From Diphasiastrum complanatum (taxonomy: Eukaryota; Streptophyta; Lycopodiopsida; Lycopodiales; Lycopodiaceae), in assembly GCA_029204225.1 (NCBI GenBank), contig CM055096.1, positions 39,594,461-39,658,460 of the forward strand: 64,000 nucleotides of DNA. Direction: 5' to 3'. A program made the position numbers and the translations under genes. Below are positions 21,066 through 40,575 of this stretch, piece after piece (position 1 is the first letter of the stretch; every line of letters begins with the position of its first letter). The notes below the pieces were generated by a model that worked only from the letters and a program-made list of their open reading frames with translations, was not told the DNA's origin and did no database searches.

Positions 21066-22274
21066 CTATGGTTCGTCACTAAATCCGTAGAACTCTTCTG
21101 ATGTGAAAGCTGAGTTGCCTGACACGTATCTTGTTGGCGCTCTTCGTGGTCTTGTCGACCTTCTAGAAAATCCTCCTGGAACAGCAATGCCTTTGCCTTT
21201 GTCTGCTCTTCTAGGTCCGGAACCATCTTGGTTCACAAGTACTATAGTAGTAGGCTGCCTCTCGAATCTTTTGTCTTCTGATTCATCGCTCGAGTGTGAA
21301 ATGACTAAAAAATCCTTGTTTTCATGTTCGTCTTCTGCTCTCTCTATTGCTGGTAGAAAATCATAGTACTGTCTCTCCATAACCTCATAGCTGACAGGAT
21401 CGTCATTGGCCATTGTCTTGTTCTCATCGAATCTAACATCTCTCACTGTTTTCATAGTGTTTGTGTCTGGCATGTAGACTCTATAGTATGATGAATTGTT
21501 GTCATAACCTACCAGAAATCTATGTTTGTCTTTCTCATCAAGCTTCTTTCGAAGCTTATCAAAAATATGTGCATAAGTTGCACAGCCAAAGATTCTGATG
21601 TGAGACAGGTTGGGCTTTCTACCCCACCATAACTCATGTGGTGTTGTGTAAGGGACACCAGACTTCCTTGTCCTGTTCTAGATATATGCGGCTGTAGCTA
21701 CTGCTTCATCCCACAATATCCTTGGAGCTTTTGAGTAGGCCATCATGCATGTGGTAGCTTCCATCAGGGTCCTATTTTTTTCTCTCTACAACACCATTGT
21801 ACTGCGGTGTGCAGGCTGTAGTCCTCCTGTGAATGATGTCACGATCATTGCAGAAGTCAGTGAAGCGATTCGAGATGTATTCGCTATCTCGATCTGTCCT
21901 GATCTGCTTCACTTTGTTGCCTGTGCATCTCTCTGTCCAATTCACATATTCTGTGAATTTATCAAGTGTTTCGGATTTATTTTGAGTAAAGTACACTCTG
22001 ACAAATTTACTATAATCATCAATGAAGGTTATGTAATATTTTGAACCTCCTACTGAGATCACATTGAAAGGCCCATAGATGTCAGAATGTACTAGCTCCA
22101 GAATCTTGGTCATTCTGTAGGAGTCTTTGATAAATGGAGTGCGTGACATCTTACCCATCAGACATGCATCACAGGTGGTCAAACTAGTTGCATTCGAGAT
22201 GCTGACCCCTGTTATCGCTCCATGATGGCTTGCTTGATAAGTGCCATTGAGTGCATGTGGCATAGTCTCCTATG
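21066..22274 (-). pseudogene. Cop-4 integrase
   Basis: Integrase core: TCDACLMGKMSRTPF, ILELVHSDIYGPFNV, YYITFIDDYSKFVRVYF, KQIRTDRDSEYISNRF, and CTPQYNGVVERK with the third acidic residue present. The GGEY block has become DSEY. The C-terminal part (21066-21473) carries RFLVGYDNNSSYYRVYMPD, then a linker with basic RRSTRPRRAPTRYV. Two long open segments remain, 21772-22263 and 21066-21473, separated by a stop near 21680 and a frame change. Confidence 0.87.
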
Positions 22275-23600
22275 TCACAGAGTGTCTGACGAATCATCAT
22301 GAGTCTGATGCATCTGATCTATAGGCAGGCGTACCCTCAGGTGATGTAGATCACCTTTTCTTCTATCTTGAGTGATCAGGGTACTGGTACTGGCGTCAAT
22401 CACGTTGCATGCTTCGTCAGAAAATGTCACATGCATCCCTACATTAGCTATCCTTGCCACAGAAAGCAAGTCTTGTTGTAGTATAGGAACGAACAAAATG
22501 TCTTCGAGTCGTCTATCTTTGCCATTGGTGTTGAGCCATAGTGAACCAATATCGTTCACTTGATGTTTGTATCCATCTCCAAGAACTATGAATCTTGAAG
22601 GATCAGCACTTCTGAAATCAGATATTATTCGACTTGATGTTACGAAGTGTGAGGTGGCTCCTGAATCTAGGATCACCTCATGTGTGTCAGATGTAGATGC
22701 TGCACACACATCTTCACAAATGTAGGTGGTCGAACAATTTCTGTTCGATCTTTCTTCACCCATTTTCAAACTCTCGGGCTCCTCGACATAGGATAAACTG
22801 TTGTTGTTCTCCTGTCTGCTTTGTGTTGATTTATTTCTTGGGTTCAGGTGACAATCGATGGCTGCGTGACCCTTCTTGTGGCAGTGGATGCACTCAATTT
22901 TTGGATTGAGCCAACACGTATCAACCGTGTGCCCATCTCTTCTGCATCTCATGCAGGTCTTCTTTTTTCTACCTTGTTGCTTCGACCTCCCTTTGCTCTT
23001 CCAATTGCCTTTGCTAGTCCCCTCTGCTTGTTGATCATGATCCTACCTTTGATTCGACTCCCTCTTAGGCTTGATTTATTTCTTGGATTTTTTTTTGTTG
23101 TCGTAGAGGGCCTGGTCAGAACCATCCTTGTGATCAAGATGTTCTCTAGCCTCAACTTCCTGTCGAATGTTCGACGGCCATGGTAGGATCTTTCGCGAGC
23201 AGGGTTTTGGTTGTCTGGAAAGATCTAGGTAAGGCTCTCAACAAGTAAGTGAGCCACTTCTTAGCTGACACTACGTTCTCTGCTCCAGAGTTGTGTAATG
23301 ACAAAAAGCGATCCTTCATCTTCCTTACAAAAGAAGTGAGGTCCTTCCCATCCCACTGTAGATTTATCAGCTGATCTTCCAGCATCATTATTTGACTTCT
23401 TGATTTCATTTGAAATCTCGTGAGCAGTGCATCCCACATCTCCTTAGCTTTGGAGAGTGTAGCTAGATCAAGCATGAGACTATCTTCAATGGATGAAGAT
23501 AGAAAGGCTACTGCCTTGTCATTTTTCTCTCTCCACTCGCGTAGCTCTTTGTCTGATGTTGTAGGCATCTCTTCTGTGCCATCCACCTAGGGGAATAAAC
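22275..23600 (-). pseudogene. Cop-4 Gag, two zinc knuckles, protease
   Basis: Gag starts near 23586 and includes FLSSSIEDSLMLDLATLSKAKEMWDAL and LRALPRSFQTTKTLL. The nucleocapsid has two CCHC knuckles in tandem, CMRCRRDGHTVDTC and CIHCHKKGHAAIDC (about 22850-22955). The protease motif VILDSGATSHFVTS is near 22640-22680, followed by LYNDIGSLW-type and LFVPILQQDLLSVARIAN segments. The 22275-22952 frame is open for about 225 codons. Stops near 23050 separate it from Gag. Confidence 0.87.
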
Positions 23601-24724: not shown

Positions 24725-26730
24725 TTCATTCATAAATCATTGGAAAGCCTTGAGGTCCTACTTTGCTTGGGCGAGCTCCTGATTTGCATTTGCCTTGTAC
24801 TTGTCGAACTCTGCCTAGTAGATGTTTAATGTTTGACTATATACCTGCACCTACTGCCTGAAAAGATTCATCTCTGCTTGGGAGAGTGGCCTTGAATCAG
24901 GTGCGGGCTGGGCTAACCAGGTGAGTTTTTCTCTTTGTAGTGCTTGTGCCTCTACTCACAGGCGTGTGTTTTCTGCTTCATATATCTAGAGTTGCATTTG
25001 GAGAGTGCTAGCCATTGGGACGCTTCAGATTGAAGCTCTTGCACCTTTGTGAAAGCATCTGTCAACGCTTTGGGGAGGCTCTAGATATACTGATTGAGAT
25101 TATCCTCCTTTTGTTGTAGCTTCGTGATCTCCCGATGCCCATCTTGCTTGTGTTGTTGAGCGATTATCAGAGATTGCTGTAGCTTTGTGATTTCCGCTCG
25201 TAGCTGCGTGTTGTTGGTTACCAGATGCAGTAGCCGGCTGTCCAATGAGGGTATAACTGCTACCGCGTTCTAGATATAAGTCCCCCCGTCATGATGTCCA
25301 AGGGAGCAGCCCTGACGACCTGTACCGTATCTTCGTCGTCTTCGACCAGCTTCTCTAGTGATCGCATGCCATCAGGTGCAGTGGAGTCAACACGATCTAG
25401 CAATGGCATAAACATTGTTTGAACAAATGCATCATCAGACAACGATTTGTCATCCTAGGAAAGCTTTGATGGAGAGGTAGGGGGTGTGAGGGAAGCAGAA
25501 GTGGAAACATGGATAGAAAAAGTTTGTCCAAACGAGAGAATGGGAGGAATAGAGGAGAATGGATAGGTGGGGGGTGTGAGGGAAGGTAGTGATGTACTCT
25601 GGCGCGGCGGTGTAAAATTGATGACCTGCATCCATGCTAGGGTGTCAGGAGAGAGTTGAGAATTGGTGGGATTGAACTGGAGAGGAATGGTTGTGGAAAC
25701 ATGAGGAATGGATGATATGATGGTGATGGAAGGGGTGATAGAAGAAGAAACAACTATAGAGGCAGTTTGTGCAGTTGGAAGAGGAACAGAAACGAAAGTA
25801 GCAGTAGAAGATTGAGCAGAAGATGCTCTAGTAGTGGTGAAAACTGAAGTGGTGGTGGTGGTGCGACGTCTGGTAGTAGGAGGAGACAAAGAAGAGGGGG
25901 CAGCGCCACATATTCTCTTGTTGGTCGTCATGTCAGTGACTGCAAGGTGTGTGGAGGTGGATGCGGTAGATGGAGGATACATGTTAGTATGAGGCACGGT
26001 GACAGATAAAATGCTTGAGTGGTGGAACCCGCACACTCTCACCTCAACAAGCGCACAGACGAAGTTATACAACAGAGGGCCTGCTGCGATACAATCACAA
26101 TTGTTAGGTTTGATGGAGATTGTTAGTTCATGGATGAGAGAAGTATGCCAATCATATGGCACTACTGTGGGGCCAAGAAATCCCAAGATGGATTCCACAA
26201 TCTGACTGAGTAGCTTGGACTGGATTCGGTCCTTTCAAAATGTTGAAACAACTAGAAATTTGTTCAACAGATGCACCACTGCCTAGATTATTGGGTCCAT
26301 GATAGCCTCTATCAGGTACCCATTGTTAGTTTGGATCAAAACCTCTGGGGTAATCTGGGTGAGAAATGGCCCTATCAAGGTCTTTGTTTGGCGATGGGAG
26401 ATGGGTTGACGATCTCCGGACACTATGCCCACGGTGACCATGAAATCTATGTTAATCCATAGCTTGTACGTGGTACCTTGGTACAAGATGTGGAAACATG
26501 ACTTCGGCACATCCCAGGTGGCATAAGCGTTTAAGGCAATACCCATGCTAATGTCAGAGCTGAAAAGCGGTGGGTAAAAACCCATTGCTTCAAGAAGAGG
26601 TCCAATCATCTGAAGCCAAATTCTGATCAAGGCATCAGAAGACAAAGGCCAGGATCTGGGTGGCAGATGGCACATCGCGGATAATGACCTGTTTGGTGCC
26701 AGTATCATCAGAAGATGAAGAAGAGGCCAT
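24725..26730 (-). pseudogene. ORF-A, uncharacterised Gag-position protein (family member 1)
   Basis: Not recognised. ATG at 26728-26730 opens MASSSSSDDTGTKQVII, then a globular part (26283-26640) with AMGFYPPLF, LNAYATWD, WINIDFMVTVGIVSG and IQTNNGYLIEAIMDPIIQ. Next come SQIVESILG, DCIAAGPLLYNFVCALVE and VTDMTTNKRICGA, then a Thr/Ser/Pro-rich stretch (25460-25900), an acidic EDDEDTVQ segment, and a Gln/Lys-rich coiled coil (24740-25260: EITKLQQ, VQELQSE, PLSQAEMNLF, ANANQELAQAK). Frameshifts lie near 26640, 26285, 25450 and 25000, with several stops. It lies downstream of an LTR, tRNA-Asp-type PBS and leader, the place where Gag or an extra ORF1 would sit. Homologues: ORF-B (28183-29028) and ORF-D (39640-40575). 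No CCHC knuckle or protease was found. Confidence 0.6.
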
Positions 26731-27342
26731 GTTAGCAATGGTAGTTAAATTCTGTTAACAAGGAAAAAGTTGAAAAAAGTGACCAAAATGGTGAAAATAG
26801 TAAAAAATCTTGAAAAAGTGGAAATAAAAAAACAGATGATGGCAACAATGGTTATGAGCACAGATCTGGATTCAGAGAGTGCAGATGATGCCTGGTAGGA
26901 AATTTGAAAGCATTCAGAGAACATGGAAATTTCAATTGAAAATTGGATAGAGCTTCGCTAGGTAATGTGACAAAAGGTTTCTCAGAGGATCAGCTGTCAT
27001 ATTGTTATATTTTTGTCAAAAAATTTCTTTTTTGCAAAAATACCAATATTACTCTTGATCCTTCAGAGAAAACAAAATCTAATGGAAAATTTGGCTCTTT
27101 TTTCCTCCAAAATGCAGATTGGTGTGTTTTTTGGGTTTTTTTCAGGTGTTGGTCTGGATGTCAAGACCTTAGAGGCTGTTCAGGGCCTCCTCTACCCTCT
27201 CACACCTCCTTCGCTAGTTGTGAACAATCCAAACACAAGAAAATATATAAAACTAATTCTTCCTACCCCAAAATCCACCTAAAACTACTCTAGAAAGCAA
27301 GAAATAACTAAAATGGCAGCTATACTAGTTAGAGAGAACCTA
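26731..27342 (-). other. leader between PBS and ORF-A
   Basis: Non-coding leader of the T1 element on the minus strand. A GAACAGCCTC/GAGGC inverted repeat lies near 27168-27190. No retroelement domain was found. Confidence 0.5.
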
Positions 27343-27360
27343 TCTCCGACAACGGCACCA
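27343..27360 (-). promoter_or_regulatory. T1 primer binding site, tRNA-Asp type
   Basis: The minus strand reads TGGTGCCGTTGTCGGAGA. This is close to TGGCGCCGTTGTCGGGGA, used by plant Athila/Tat-type gypsy elements. It indicates a gypsy lineage distinct from the tRNA-Met-primed elements nearby. Confidence 0.75.
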
Positions 27361-28182
27361 CTATAGGGACGTAGATCTTTCGTAGTAGTAGCCCTTCCGC
27401 TTGTCAAAAAGGGTTAGAATGCTGGCTATGTAAAGATGCAACCTTTAGATACTTCTCTACTTCCTCCCTTAACTCTACTCACCACTAACACTACCCACCA
27501 TTAACTCTACACCACGAGAGAATGTGAAGAGAAGAGTAGAAGAGATAGAGGGGAGAAGAGAGAAAGGGAGTGAGGGTGGAGGTTAGAAGTAGAGCAAGAG
27601 GGAGAGAAAGAGAGTGAGAGGGGAGGTTAGCTCATTTGCTCATTGTGCATGCTAATGGAAAAACATTAACAATTGAAACCAAAAACATGTAAGCTAGAAA
27701 GCAAAAGCAAACACGCGAAGAGCATTAGCAAGTAGTGAATAGCAAATGAGGATGCTTCTCTCCAAAATGGTAGAGTTTCCTCCTTCTCATTAAGCATGAA
27801 AAATAGAGAACAAATGGTGTCTGTTTATAAATGGGGAAGGCCCTTGCCCCAAAATCCTATTGGCTAATATGTACATTGATCCTATCCATTTATCTTGGAC
27901 CCAACTTAATCCAAGGGTCCACAAAAAGTACATTAGAAATCACAAGATTCATGTGAGTCCAGAATTGGACCCAACTTAAAAAAGTTTAATACTAAGTTCT
28001 AACTTGACTTTGGGCTTCAACTTTTATTTGAATTACAAAAGGGCCTAAGTCTATTATTTCTATTTACATTTAACTTGCGTGCTCATTGGGCCATAGGCTT
28101 ATACGCTCAAGAAGCCATGCCCTCGCAACACCTTTATTAACCAAATTTATTTATTTACACTATGTTGGGAATACCCCCAACA
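27361..28182 (-). repeat. T1 5' LTR (gypsy-like)
   Basis: In element orientation it starts TGTTGGGGGTATTCCCAACA at 28182 and ends a few bases before the PBS. A TATA box (ATTTATAAA, 27824-27832) lies some 25 bp downstream of a CCAAT box (AGCCAATAGG, 27855-27864). A polypyrimidine tract of about 110 nt follows (27525-27635). The LTR start cuts the ORF-B coding sequence. No second LTR is in the window. Confidence 0.7.
27824..27864 (-). promoter_or_regulatory. CCAAT and TATA boxes of T1 LTR
   Basis: On the minus strand AGCCAATAGG is followed by CATTTATAAACAG. Spacing and position in the LTR are those of a polymerase II promoter. Confidence 0.55.
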
Positions 28183-29028
28183 TAGGAGGACTAGCGGAGG
28201 TGGAGGCAGTGCCACACATTCTTTTGCTGGCCGGCATGTTAGTAGCAACATAGTGAGTGGAGGTAGTAGCACCGGAAGGTGGGTAGAAGTTAACTTGAGA
28301 AATGTCAGCCGAAAGGATGGAAGAGCGTCCGAAGTTTCGAACCTTCTGTTCGAGAACTATGCAAGCAAGGTTACACAACAGGGGACCAGTGGCCATTCAG
28401 TTGCATGAGTTTTATTTAACGGCCAGTCTTAGTTCATTCAAAACAAATTGGTATTCCAAATAAGATTCTACTATTTGACTCATGAGGTTAGATTGTATGC
28501 ACTCCTTGCACAAGGATGAAATGACTAGAAAGGTATTCAGTAGATATATTGTTGATTGGATGATGGGGTTATTGATAGCCTCTATCAAATACCCGTTGTT
28601 AGTCTTTAGTTGAGTTTTGGGACCCAACAGAGTTAGGAATGGCTGGATGAGAGCTGGGGCATTGCGATGGGAGGGTTTTTGGAGTGTACCAGAGACAATT
28701 CCTATTGCCGCTAGTGCGTCTGTATTGACACACACTCGGTACATATTGTTATCGTACTAGACATAGAAGCAGGCCTTTTTCTTGTCCCACATGGTGTAGG
28801 CCATGAGGATGATAGGCATGTTAAGCACGGTTGTGAATATAGATGGGTAAATGCCCATCGCTTGCAGGAGAGTGGCTGTCTGGACCCAGGCGTGACCAAG
28901 GAATCTGCAAGCAGTGGCCAGATTTGCATACAGTCAGTAGAAACGTCATTCTTGATGACATCCTTGGGGGTAAGGGAGTTGTCAGATTGACTAGATGGCT
29001 AGTTGGTAGGGCTAGAAGCTGTGGCCAT
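28183..29028 (-). pseudogene. ORF-B, second copy of the ORF-A family, truncated by T1 LTR
   Basis: ATG at 29026-29028 (MATASSPTN). Aligned with ORF-A it keeps LLQAMGIYPSIF, AYTMWDKKKACFYV, VNTDALAAIGIVSGT, KTNNGYLIEAINNPIIQ, LLNTFLVIS, SQIVES, MATGPLLCNLACIVLE, NFYPPSGATTSTH and KRMCGTASTS. It ends where the T1 LTR starts (28182), so the Ser/Thr/Pro and coiled-coil parts are missing. Stops and a frameshift near 28750 are present. Because the two copies diverge yet keep the same order of blocks, the family was probably under protein-level constraint when active. The function is unknown. Confidence 0.6.
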
Positions 29029-30246
29029 TATATTATTGGGTCGGATTACTGTGGAAGAAGACAAAAATGGAAAAACAAAAAAAGACTTTCAAAAAAGGCT
29101 AAAAAGACATTAAAAACAGAGGAAAAGGCTAAAAAAAACTAGAAAGGAGGATAACGCACAAAAGTAGCTAGAAAAAGTGGGTAACAAGTGTATAACAAGT
29201 AGTTATAATGGTAGATGTAGGTGCAGGCAAAGTTTGGTCACAATATGAGAACTTTGAAAATTCACAAAAAATCTCGGCAGAGCTTTGTTGTAAGAAGTGC
29301 CAAATAAATCGAACTTTTCTCTTATATAGAGGAAAATTAGAGTGCATATTAGGAGAAGTGTACTCTCCACAGCTCAGTTCTTTACCAAAATTGGTAGGGA
29401 TCTTCTTCACAAAATTATAAGACCCCAAAAAAATCTGCGAAAGTTCAGTAGGTGATTTGGATGCCTTGCGAAGGTTCTGCAAGGGTTCAGCAGTTCCTAC
29501 GAGAGTTCAGCTCTCTCATGTAGGAAACTCTCGCACAACTTTTTTTTATGGCTGATTTTCATGTTTTGACTATGTAGGTAGGTCAATTTCACTATCTAGA
29601 ATCCATTTTTGGTGTCTACGAAGGTTGGTTATGACATCTTGATGCTCAACAAAGGTTCCAAAGATTCTCCCTTCCAAAACCCTTGCATACACTCAAATTT
29701 GATAATTTTTCCATCAGTAACTCTCGTAGAGATTTTTATAGATGCATTTAAGTCAAATTTAGTGACTGACAAATCTGCAAGAGTTAGTCTCCAAGGGATT
29801 TCAAAAAATCTTGGAAAAAGTGCTCTTTTTTGGTGATTTTTGGTGATATTTTGTAATTCTCTGATCCCTAACTCTAGCAGACTAGTATTCACTTGCATCT
29901 AGGCTAGACCTAACTATGGAAAGCTCTATGACAATTTTTATGGAAATTGATAGCTGCTCCATCAGTTTAAGTGATTTTTGCCTTTATTTTGTTATTTTTT
30001 CTTAAGATCGATTTCTCTGATCCTCAAGTTTGGAATATGATTGGTGTCATCTGATGATCTACTACACTTTTGATCCTATCTGGATCTAGATCCCACTTGA
30101 ATCTTGTCGGATGTTGTCGGGATCTAATCAGATTTTGTTGGATCTTGATGGATCTGGCTTGATCTGACAAGATTTCTCTAGGTCTGACTGTGATGACCCT
30201 GAAGATGTAACTATTTGTGACTTGTCATCACCATCCTTGATCTGCT
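29029..30246. other. non-coding; leader of ORF-B element and gypsy 3' region
   Basis: No gene was found. There is a short hairpin GAGAGTTCAGCTCTCTC near 29503-29519. From 30040 to 30190 there is a GATCTGG/GGATCT-rich degenerate repeat. The right edge abuts the stop codon of the gypsy integrase at 30247. Confidence 0.45.
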
Positions 30247-31175
30247 TCATTGAGGTGGCCAATACTTATGCAAATGGCTACCATTGATGGGCGTGTCGAA
30301 TGGCATCCCATCTAACTGCTCGAGGTTCACAGTTCCATGACATAGGATTTTCTTTACACGGTATGGGCCCTCACCAGTGAACTTCAACTTTCCCTTGATC
30401 ATCTTAGTTTTATACATGAGGACCAAATCTCTAGATTGAAGATCTTTCTTATGCAATCGACAATTATGCCATACCTTGTGTCGCTCTTTCTCATCTACCA
30501 ATGCATGCATAGCTAGTAAGTGCATTCACAAAGATTATGTAATGCTTCATGGTGTAATTGCAGAGAGTTGGATTTGTCAAGACATTGTGTTGTGGAAATC
30601 CTTAATGAAGGTACCAAAAATTATACTGGCATTACTGCATCCTAATCATAAACTAGTTATAATAGCATGTGATCAGTGCTTCTCTTATAAGCCATTCTGA
30701 ATGCCCACAAAGCAGCATGTAACTTGTGCTCCCAATCAGATCTGCTGGCTTCAACTGTTTTCGTGATAACACTACACAAGATCTTATTGGATGATTCTGT
30801 CTGTCTATTACCATGGAGATAATATGGTGTGCTGAATTGATGGATCACGAAGACTTCCTCCAACATGACCTTGATGGTCTCATTAACAAAATGGCTTCCG
30901 CGATCGCTTACTATCTCCATCGGGCATCCGAAGCGCACAATGATATTTTTATACAAGAACTTGGCAGTTGTTCAAGCATCAGTTGTCCGCACTGCCTTGT
31001 CTTCTACCCATTTGGTGAGATAATCTGTGGCCACGATAATCTATCGGACTTGTGAACTTCTTGCATTAGGGTGAATTGGACCAATATAGTCCAATCCCCA
31101 CTTCTCAAAATCGATTTTCACAGTTGGTCCATTTTGAACTGATTTTGTAAATCTCAGTGCTAATTTTCCAGTTTC
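30247..31175 (-). pseudogene. Ty3/gypsy integrase
   Basis: Gypsy integrase on the minus strand. Order of landmarks: QNGPTVKIDFEKWGLDYIGP (first D), IIVATDYLTKWVEDKAV, FLYKNIIVRFGCP, EIVSDRGSHFVNETI (second D), HQFSTPYYLHGNRQTESSNK (third E), then DWEHKLHAALWAFRMAYK. The C-terminal part is LHKKDLQSRDLVLMYK, KLKFTGEGPYRVKKI, MPFDTPINGSHLHKYWPP, which resembles Tat/Athila-type ends. The catalytic acidic residues are kept; stops near 31060 and 30985 and a gap around 30530-30650 break it. RT upstream is not recognisable. It could be the Pol end of an element that used ORF-A/B-like Gag, but the link is inference. Confidence 0.85.
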
Positions 31176-37427: not shown

Positions 37428-39639
37428 CTATAAGGATTGCCTTATGAAGATATGACTAGATCCTGTTGCAAAACAACCAAAAGGACACCTGTGGAGCAAA
37501 ACCACCCATCCAAATCTAGATCCCTCCTGGAGTTCCCTCCTGGACCTAGCCCCAAGCCATAGTGAAGAACCCAAGAGTGAGGAGGAGAAATTGGCTCAAG
37601 AAACTGAATTTCCAATAGGAAGATGGGCGAGTTTCCAATGGACATATTCTCCTCATGAGAGAGAGAATATTCTCCCTAGGATCCCCATGCAACCTATATT
37701 AAGCTATTGACCTCCTATTCTTGCATTAAAGGAGTCATTCACTATGCATGTGCTCCTATGTCCAATTATAAGTCTGGGCCCTCATATGATTATTGATTAC
37801 TTTACAGGCCAAGCCTGGAATGACGAGGCATAACCAATAACCATATACACCTGGAGTGACCGGCTATCCACATTAGGAATTATTATGATTCCCTTATACA
37901 GGACATGGACGTAACAGGGAAAGTGTGAGAGATGCCTATAAAAGGAGAGACCTCATTTTGCATTGAGGTGAAAGGATAAGGAGTGAGATGGGTGAAAAGA
38001 TTTTGCTTTGTATGTTGAATGAGAAGATGTTACGTGAGAGAATGAATGGGTTATTTGTGAGAGGAGGAACTGTGAGGGGAGAGGCGCTTGAATTTTGGAA
38101 AACCTTGCTTGAATCTATTTTGCCCTGAGGGTGACCCAAGCGGTTGTCATCCCCATTGAGGGTATTGCCTGATGCTTTAATACAGCTTCGTGATCATCTT
38201 GCCTCAGTCTCATGTCGCTCAGGCTTGCTATTATTTGTAAATGCGATCCATAGCCTACGAAAGAATGAGGTCCAAACCCCAATGGCCCAAGAGTTGCGGC
38301 AGTAGCCAACTCCCTTTCAGCGACATTGGAAGGAGCGATGGTTGCTCTCTATGCTACAACATTGTCTCGTGTTTATATGGCTCTGAAGTGTCTGCTTAGA
38401 TTTTAGTGCTTCTGAAGTGCCACACAAGCCCTGCGAATCTGCATATTCCCAATCTCGCCTGAGTTGCTATAGTTCGGCTCACACACTCTGCATTGTAAAC
38501 AGATCAGTCTGGAGGCATTGTTGAGAACAGAGCAGCCTCAGTCATCTGAACTCCTGAACTCCTTGCGACCAGTCCAGAGAAGACCTACTACGATGTGAGA
38601 GGCACGAGCTGTGACCAGTGCAATTCTTGTTGGCTTTGATTCTGGCCGTAGTCAGAAATGTTGCTTAATCTCCATCCTAACTAGATGGCGATATCTACAT
38701 GTGGAAAGGCTATGTAATGATCACACTGTGTGATGAATACCTGTATCCGTTGATTGTGACCTGGGTTAAGAGAAACACAGTATGTAATTGTCTGTTATGC
38801 AGAGGCTGTTGCATTTGGTGCGGATAATGACCACGGTCAGAAGTATTGTTGCAGGGTTGACTGATTCAGTGGAGGAACAAACGTTAAGTCTTATTGCCTA
38901 AGTGTTCGCCAGCTCTATGGCCCTCGTTATTTGCATACACAAGCCTACGTGGTGGGCTCATGACTTGGTGGTCCTTGTAGGCATACCGTCTCCCTCCGAC
39001 ATCTGAGGTATATCTTTAACTTTTATATTATTGTTGCAATAGGAACCAGATATAGAAGGGACATTCATTATGTTAACCCTTATGTTGGAAATGAGTAGTT
39101 TCATGTAGTAGTGTGTGAAATCTAAAGTTATGTGGTGTGACTTAATGGGTAGAATACATGTGTTAGGATGTGATGGAACTTCGTATTATAGTCCCTTCTA
39201 TGACGCTTGTGTGCTAACATTTCGGGTTCTAAGCTTTGCCTAAATTGGAATCACATTGCAACATGAGTTTTTCCATTGCATCTTGTTATTTGCGCTTTGA
39301 GTTAACACGCTCGACCTCTTTGAAATAGAAGAGCGGGTTGTCAATGTACATGGTTGAAATACACCACCTCGGTTAGGAGTCATCATAGTCACCTCCATCG
39401 TTGGAACTGCCTAGCGAAATACCTAGGCCTGGCGCTTGGCAAAATACCACCGCTTATCAAACAAGGCGGTGTGTATAATTGGCACCCTCACACTGCACGG
39501 AACTAATCATCCCAATTGTCCTCTGGAACCCTAGCATGGCTCAACTAAATCAACTTCACACCTCGTACCTCTCCTACATCTCCATCCATCCTCCAAACCA
39601 CTCTCCAATTTCTCTCTATTCCTCTCGTTCCTTCATTTG
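37428..39639. other. LTR-like, non-coding
   Basis: The part next to the PBS should be a minus-strand 5' LTR, but no second copy is present to define it. A plus-strand TATA box CCTATAAAAGGAGAG lies at 37935-37949 with CCAAT about 100 bp upstream, which would suit an LTR in the opposite orientation, so the region may be composite. A hairpin CACCGC..GCGGTG lies near 39449-39474. No coding signal was found before 39640. Confidence 0.4.
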
Positions 39640-40575
39640 AACAATCTGTTCTTAACCTCGTTGTCAATTTCTCTCCTCTCACACCCCCCACTACTCCTGT
39701 AAAGGTTGTCAAGGATGACCAACCGTTGTTCGCAATCGTTGTCCGATGACGCATTTGTACAGACAACTTTTATGTCCTCACCCTGCTGATCCCATAGCAC
39801 CAAAGGGTATGGCACCGCCAGAAATACTGATTGAAGATGACGACACTGGCGTGCAAGCCATCCAGGCTACAACTCAGACATCCCCAGCAAGTGCCATGCT
39901 ACTGGTTGCTCCCACGGACCTCATGACGGCCTACCAGCCTTGGGAACATTCATCCAAGACATGGTAGTGGCCAGGACATTACTGGATAGCTGAGTACTGC
40001 AATTGGCAACCAACAACACCTAGCTATGAGCAGAAATCATGAAGCTGCAACAAGAATTGATGATAGCTCAACAACATGGGCTATATAGACAAAAGGAGAT
40101 CCTGAAGCTGCAGCAAAAAGAAGACAATATTAATCAATATATCCAAAGCTTCTTAAAGGTAGTAACAGATGCTTTAGCAAAAGTCCAGGAGCTTCAATCT
40201 GAAGTGTCACAAAGGCTCGTCCCCCTCCAGGCACAACTTCAGATCTACGAAACAAAAAATGCACGGTTGCAAGCGCTACAAAATGAGAAGGCTACCTGGC
40301 TAGCTCAACTAGTACCTAATACAAGGCCGCTGTCACAAGCTAAAATGAATTTATTTTGGCATTAGGTGCAGATTTATAGCCAAACCTACAGCTATAAGGC
40401 GAAGATCGATAAGTACAAGACAAGTGCCAATCAGGAGCTGGCTCAGGCAAAGCAAGCCCTCAAGGCCTACCAAAAGTTTATGGAACAGAAATCTCAATCT
40501 GCCCTGGTGGCAATTCCAACGCCACCTATCTTTGATGTTGCACAGTTTGTTGCAAGATCTTGCATAGGAGATGGT
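39640..40575 (+). pseudogene. ORF-D, third copy of the ORF-A family (C-terminal half)
   Basis: Plus-strand copy of the second half of ORF-A. It begins in the Ser/Pro-rich part (LTPPTTPVKV), passes DDAFVQT in another frame (DDTGVQA acidic segment), then the coiled coil: AEIMKLQQELMIAQQH, EILKLQQKEDNINQYIQSF, KVQELQSEVSQ, LQAQLQIYETKNARLQALQ, RPLSQAKMNLF, YKTSANQELAQAKQALKAYQ, ending in PPIFDVAQFVA. ORF-A shares these blocks in the same order. Open for 108 and 96 codons with one stop between (40363-40365). Frameshifts occur in the first 250 bp. The end at about 40575 gives the C-terminus not preserved in ORF-A. It abuts Cop-5 Gag. Confidence 0.62.

Follow-up and report, generated by a model that had tools for sequence, protein, structure and literature searches.

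ORF-A and ORF-B are two broken open reading frames (ORFs) on the minus strand of a 64,000-nt window (C5:39594461-39658460); the genome searched comprises 1,744,706,496 bases in 5176 contigs. ORF-A stands behind a long terminal repeat (LTR) on the same strand, a primer-binding site (PBS) and a leader, and all three of these are real by sequence comparison (Table 1). From this order a preliminary description, made from the letters of the window, had placed the ORF-A protein in the Gag position of a gypsy-like element. Genomic loci extracted for comparison are denoted by L-numbers (L009, L010, L011 and others); one complete element, the C9 element, has its 5' LTR in L013 and its 3' LTR in L011. 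In the genome searches only part of the first-look candidates was scored, and the candidate counts given below are first-look counts rather than numbers of verified copies.

ORF-A and ORF-B belong to one real protein family, hereafter the extra ORF, of which they are diverged copies, and their similarity is not due to chance. The translation of ORF-A contains the blocks LEAMGFYPPLF, VGIVSGDRQ, TNNGYLIEAIMDPII, LLSQIVES, IAAGPLLYNF and TTNKRICG, and that of ORF-B the blocks LQAMGIYPSIF, IGIVSGTLQ, TNNGYLIEAINNPIIQ and LMSQIVES, followed by two looser ones, ATGPLLCNL and ASKRMCG; all blocks of the series proposed earlier were located on the minus strand, in the same order. Compared directly, one stop-free piece of each shares 33 of 66 residues (BLASTP, E 5e-22, a single comparison). 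A 603-aa open frame in L009, on another chromosome, matches both copies, ORF-A in three pieces at 26615-24923 and ORF-B at 28885-28181 (tblastn; identities in Table 1). Neither frame is intact: an early frameshift and in-frame stops disrupt ORF-A, and ORF-B has frameshifts as well as an LTR inserted at 28182, the place where its relatives L002, L007 and L008 continue into a linker. ORF-A does run on into a Ser/Thr/Pro linker and then a Gln-rich coiled coil, as had been described; this copy has no C-terminal domain, the family homology ending at 24731. ORF-D, proposed as a further member, matches in its linker and coiled-coil part and shows no match to the rest of the family. The copies are many: with the first ORF-family query piece all 150 scored out of 7444 candidates match at E below 1e-27, which rules out a single-copy host transduction. 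For the second piece 147 of 10,113 candidates were scored, and for the C-terminal domain (D2) 150 of 15,659.

In complete elements the extra ORF lies behind the integrase. The order in L009 and L011 is RNase H, integrase, spacer, extra ORF, LTR, and the whole of a 1801-bp integrase-to-ORF query (40 scored of 4751 candidates) is spanned in 21 of the 46 listed matches, the query itself and a near-identical contig included. The open frames are 603, 568 and 508 aa long in L009, L010 and L011; the longest one listed in the genome search, 646 aa, contains a stop within its match. In L009 and L011 the frame stands 3' of the integrase and 5' of the LTR, that is, at least 250 codons lie between pol and the 3' LTR on the same strand; thus the extra ORF falls under the definition of a sense additional ORF (aORF-3S or eORF-3'F) of a plant gypsy element. 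ORF-B occupies this regular position in the window itself, preceded by the spacer and by an integrase remnant with one frameshift near 30520; Pfam rve on 30657-30971 scores below the cut-off there (24.6 of 32.6 bits).

The place of Gag is taken by another protein. The C9 element, about 13 kb long, has an LTR pair 96.25% identical, a 5-bp target-site duplication CCAAC, a PBS and a leader, and upstream of its protease and reverse transcriptase (RT) it carries Retrotrans_gag PF03732 (E 6e-10). Zinc-knuckle-like motifs are seen by eye behind Gag in L012 and L013. In the pol pieces Pfam identifies RT PF00078 (L012), RNase H PF17917 and PF17919, and integrase PF17921, with PF00665 (rve) below the cut-off. 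The domain order matches Gag, protease, RT, RNase H and integrase, the protease being recognised by eye only. The preliminary description had suggested looking for full-length elements with the same LTR type, PBS and a downstream pol; the C9 element is of this kind, and in it the ORF is found behind pol, not before it. The Gag position does not hold for the family.

The earlier assignment of the carrier to a tRNA-Asp-primed gypsy-like LTR element was correct. The window PBS is complementary to the host tRNA-Asp with two mismatches, and the C9 PBS with one. A genome search with a tRNA-Asp anticodon-arm pattern gave no matches; the PBS-type 3'-end pattern found tRNA genes instead, with nine exact tRNA-type 3' ends among 39 matches (at most two mismatches), and both loci that were fetched are tRNA-Asp genes according to ARAGORN. 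No chromodomain match was seen in the scanned integrase frame. The extra RNase H that would point to Tat was found neither between protease and RT nor between RNase H and integrase in the pieces scanned, which cover some of the copies. By layout (domain order, no chromodomain, tRNA-Asp PBS) the elements likely belong to the Athila clade.

The ORF-A order appears peculiar to one copy. Leader homology stops at about 27066 in all 39 other scored copies (40 scored of 4516 candidates), and the window copy alone continues. On the other side, of 13 ORF-bearing loci compared, 11 start to match at 26974-26977 and L033 at 26735, while L028 yields no match. These two points are about 7.5 kb apart in the C9 element, and therefore the window ORF-A copy is devoid of gag and pol. 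The TATA box described below is missing from it as well. Hence ORF-A appears in the Gag position because some 7.5 kb are missing from that copy. At the gap lies a 91-nt hairpin (ends AGGATC...GATCCT, perhaps flanked by a 4-bp repeat CTGA), which has no significant match among the other loci compared. No second leader/ORF junction emerged from a genome search with one exact pattern, whose sensitivity is limited. Ten relatives of ORF-A were chosen from 181 matches, most near the top of the list: the integrase is upstream in five, the spacer between pol and the ORF in eight, the leader in none. Among seven relatives of ORF-B (L002-L008) the spacer is present in six, the integrase tail in one (the flanks are short) and, again, the leader in none. 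In one of the ten relatives of ORF-A, L029, the spacer is shortened and immediately preceded by an LTR, before which lies a C-domain; we take this LTR to be the 3' end of a nested element. In L003-L006, 97-99.8% identical to each other, an LTR piece directly follows the N-domain at a place different from that in the window. The LTR-PBS-leader-ORF order thus looks like a local accident. The 3' LTR of the ORF-A element is absent from the window and from the 10 kb to the left of it.

The L009 frame opens with an ATG at about 3048 and reaches 5945, a length of about 965 codons that includes internal stops. It begins with an N-domain of some 230 residues; then come a Ser/Thr/Pro linker, in which these three residues make up as much as 60% of a 60-residue stretch, a region rich in Gln, Lys and Glu, coiled-coil-like as judged by composition, and D2. 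The ratio of nonsynonymous to synonymous divergence (dN/dS) over 21 pairs is 0.13 to 0.57, not exceeding 0.352 in 18 of them. Between subfamilies it is 0.13-0.35; the five pairs within subfamily B give 0.23-0.57 and include the three highest values of all (0.57, 0.47, 0.43). The estimates are rough, because the widest pairs are close to saturation at synonymous sites and because the decay of inserted copies pushes the ratio up. Judging by these ratios, rough as they are, the extra-ORF protein is kept by purifying selection.

The family was described as uncharacterised and without a known domain, and the searches agree. Among seven window pieces the only Pfam signals were a sub-threshold M_domain on ORF-B (13.9 bits, cut-off 25.6) and a weak rve on one integrase piece; the ORFs of L009, L010 and L011 and two C-domains matched no Pfam family; and 31 members at E up to 10 produced seven scattered chance-level names (best E 0.031), no gag or capsid family among them. 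A PDB profile search with the family had no matches, and Foldseek with a poor model of the N-domain returned nothing at E<=0.001. In the opposite direction, the Transposase_32 profile gave four weak matches in the genome (best 24.4 bits, cut-off 45), at four loci with no significant match to the extra ORF, and the ATHILA profile one match (16 bits against a cut-off of 20.2). In these weakly Transposase_32-like loci, L038-L041, TNIGYLL.AI is read in two of the four translated frames and TNLGYLLYAI in one; the corresponding family sequence is TNNGYLIEAI.

The spacer between pol and the ORF contains a candidate promoter. A TATA-like box is present in all 16 aligned loci that hold the region and is exactly TATATAAG in 14 of them; the exact box occupies the same place in 11 of the 13 fully covered loci. 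It is common to two subfamilies and lies 259-300 nt before the first ATGGC in the 13 loci where both were located. Between-group identity in the fully covered loci (nine of subfamily A and four of subfamily B; the partial L029, L036 and L007 were dropped) is 0.76 for the 200 nt around the box and 0.71 for the spacer upstream of it, against 0.48 for the 5' untranslated region (UTR) and 0.51 where the ORF begins. In 20-nt steps the identity is 0.54-0.85 until about 80-100 nt behind the box, and at most 0.53 from about 100 nt to the ATG. For the pairs computed, synonymous sites show a between-group identity of about 0.27-0.38 (ORF) and 0.22-0.54 (integrase); therefore the non-coding spacer is better conserved than these silent positions. 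This pattern is what a promoter region would look like, and we infer that the extra ORF has its own TATA promoter there.

Behind the N-domain the predicted protein has a pair of basic clusters, KR[MI]...RR, resembling a bipartite nuclear localisation signal (NLS), the TNKRxCG block being its first half. In an alignment of 32 rows, which come from decayed copies and include two rows from one locus, KR is kept in 22 and a TRR-type second cluster in 20. The N-terminus (MASSSSEDSGAKQ...) is not signal-like, and the Kyte-Doolittle maxima over 19 residues are marginal (1.71 in L009, 1.94 in L011, 1.46 in L016), those of L009 and L011 falling in the Ser/Thr/Pro linker. Since the basic motif is accompanied by a non-signal N-terminus and by no convincing membrane segment, as far as hydropathy goes, a nuclear accessory protein is preferred over an envelope.

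We therefore consider it probable, from the sequence comparisons, that the family is a sense extra ORF behind the integrase encoding a nuclear accessory protein with its own promoter, and that the window order arose by loss of gag and pol. The ORF would be transcribed from the TATA promoter in the spacer; the predicted protein would enter the nucleus via the NLS-like motif, oligomerise through the coiled coil, and play an accessory or regulatory role of the kind proposed for the maize Grande nuclear protein. The absence of about 7.5 kb with gag and pol would have brought ORF-A behind the LTR, PBS and leader. Foamy viruses express accessory genes from a second sense promoter downstream of pol; their proteins are unrelated, and the comparison concerns layout only. 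Several observations weigh against this proposal. The strict form of both basic clusters is kept in only 15 of the 32 rows; all five copies translated behind the coiled coil are broken; and one subfamily-B pair reaches a dN/dS of 0.57. The AlphaFold models are poor, with a mean predicted local distance difference test score (pLDDT) of 47 for the N-domain and 34 for the C-domain, and neither is usable. The conservation covers the whole spacer and not the TATA block alone, so that other roles of the spacer are possible, and it falls about 100 nt behind the box rather than at it. Finally, the lineage (Athila or another OTA branch) was judged from structure.

Alternative explanations concern the nature of the protein and the origin of the window junction. 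The N-domain could be a very diverged relative of the Transposase_32 or plant-mobile-domain (PMD) proteins of other OTA extra ORFs, and the short motif TNxGYLlxAI, common to the family and the Transposase_32-like loci of the same genome, speaks for this. However, none of the 31 members matches Transposase_32, ATHILA, PMD or Transposase_28 at E up to 10 (HMMER filters drop many weak matches), and hhalign gives a probability of 0.7% over 18 columns, both alignments being made of few and similar sequences; we regard such a relationship as rather unlikely. An envelope-like protein translated from a spliced RNA, as proposed for Athila and Calypso, would agree with the place and orientation of the ORF, which are those of env-like ORFs (PMC7264820, PMC1142308), and with the presence of a coiled-coil region. 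This is nevertheless improbable, given the start of the protein, the marginal hydrophobic peaks, assessed by Kyte-Doolittle hydropathy only, and the basic bipartite motif found instead. That the protein is a new type of Gag, the original proposal, is extremely improbable: it would suit the order of features in the window, but the same element family has an ordinary Gag and the ORF is 3' of pol. With PF03732 holding the Gag place in the C9 element, the Gag reading is refuted for the family.

The junction in front of ORF-A could also be a trace of expression, if this copy were a reverse-transcribed subgenomic RNA, made either by splicing of the leader to the ORF or by reverse transcription that switched to the leader at the 5' end of an RNA from the internal promoter. 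The breaks on both sides of the junction are sharp, GTGAG follows the leader in three of seven copies read, the ORF-side break comes 24 nt after the T that opens the TATA box, and barley Bagy2 does splice an env-like RNA (PMC7264820). On the other hand, the joined sequence is not an exact fit to the candidate splice sites, GTGAG is absent from the other four leaders, a hairpin sits at the join, no second copy was found with the single exact pattern, and a plain deletion suffices for a single copy. A spliced-RNA retrocopy is unsupported in view of the splice-site misfit, the hairpin and the missing second junction, and we give the subgenomic RNA as a whole only a small chance. If it were true, the window copy would show directly how the ORF is expressed. 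Very doubtful, too, is a more elaborate combination, in which, in a retrotransposon lineage of a free-sporing plant, a second, sense promoter behind pol drives a nuclear oligomer of about 965 residues with an undescribed fold and an anti-silencing or element-activating function, and the window copy results from an RT switch between this short RNA and the leader.

The preferred description, a sense accessory ORF behind the integrase, has parallels in known plant elements. Extra ORFs are present in most OTA elements; the extra-ORF proteins of Ty3/gypsy elements form 314 groups, and a known domain is present in only 21.4% of extra-ORF proteins (Neumann et al. 2019, PMC6317226). Sense additional ORFs behind pol have been reviewed together with the spliced Bagy2 RNA (Vicient and Casacuberta 2020, PMC7264820). 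Those of Athila, Calypso and Bagy2 are like the ORF considered here in position and orientation (PMC7264820), and also in element length and high sequence divergence. Unlike them, the present family shows no similarity to PF03078 or other Pfam entries in our searches and no clear transmembrane segment, has a long Ser/Thr/Pro linker and a Gln-rich coiled coil, and resides in a host with dynein heavy-chain genes. Diaspora, which was compared with Calypso, has a tRNA-Asp PBS like the elements studied here (2005, PMC1142308). Gene23 of Grande is an accessory gene between pol and the 3' LTR with its own promoter and a nuclear product, features reported there and predicted here, but it is antisense to gag-pol (PMC7264820), whereas the extra ORF is sense. 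The Transposase_28 (TRP28) ORFs of Retand are antisense as well and contain PF04195 (Vicient 2025, PMC11963269), which was not found in our 31 members. TatI, an OTA-type element described from club-mosses, carries a further RNase H, placed between protease and RT (PMC6317226); none was found in the pieces scanned in this study. The origin and use of plant gypsy extra ORFs are treated as still open (PMC6317226, PMC7264820). A literature search on internal promoters and lycophyte elements, by title and start of abstract and with subscription journals mostly outside its coverage, gave no description of the family among the papers listed.

The family thus adds a large extra-ORF group, under selection and with first-look candidates in the thousands; its host is probably not a flowering plant. 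The dynein heavy-chain domain PF12774 has 36 matches in the host genome, all above the cut-off; dynein heavy chains are not known from flowering plants and pines, so the host probably has motile sperm and is probably seed-free. The promoter candidate and the nuclear motif make the idea of an accessory protein directly testable, and the window demonstrates that a copy without gag and pol can mimic an ORF in the Gag position.

Table 1. Features of the window related to the extra-ORF family
Feature	Position	Strand	Evidence
Integrase C-terminal part (pol) of the ORF-B element	30250..31109	-	tblastn with L009 integrase: 71% over 195 aa, 80% over 90 aa
Non-coding spacer between pol and extra ORF, ORF-B element	29230..29966	-	blastn to L011 2198-2917, 69%; kept between subfamilies
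TATATAAG, candidate TATA box of internal promoter	29321..29328	-	300 nt before ORF-B ATG; same place in relatives
ORF-B, N-terminal domain of extra ORF, frame-broken	28183..29028	-	tblastn 49% over 247 aa to L009 ORF
5' LTR of the ORF-A element, inserted into ORF-B	27362..28182	-	79% to LTR of C9 element
PBS TGGTGCCGTTGTCGG, tRNA-Asp type, two mismatches	27346..27360	-	3' end of host tRNA-Asp genes
Untranslated leader, normally followed by gag	27066..27345	-	39 other scored copies, 89-94% identity, ends at query position 273-284
Imperfect 91-nt hairpin, like a miniature inverted-repeat transposable element (MITE), at the gag-pol gap	26975..27065	-	75% self-complementary over 89 nt
5' UTR and broken ORF-A (ATG at 26730): N-domain, linker, coiled coil	24731..26974	-	homology start; tblastn 55-67%
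ORF-D, a third copy, truncated, with linker and coiled-coil part	about 39510..40545	+	tblastn E 2e-36; blastn; translation

Some further features of the compared loci may be mentioned. No obvious polypurine tract is seen directly before the 3' LTR at L009 6090-6120, L010 6110-6136 and L011 6330-6352; the sequence there ends with CAGGCCGTGGGTCC, then TGTTGGGG or TATTGGGG. In L003-L006, at about 2090-2750 in the orientation of the ORF, the LTR piece adjoins the N-domain with neither linker nor coiled coil. The L010 region 1434-2266 is a patchwork copy with several deletions, made of an RNase H piece, a 3' LTR half with the first PBS bases, an integrase scrap and spacer. Just downstream of ORF-A, at 21066-23586 on the minus strand of the window, there are copia-like remnants (gag-like, zinc-knuckle and integrase frames, by eye). 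In L017, at 1187-2551, a 455-aa open frame has a copia-type integrase, recognised by eye, running in frame into the ORF family, probably a nested insertion, and a similar match with a 524-aa frame is located at C12:45603751.

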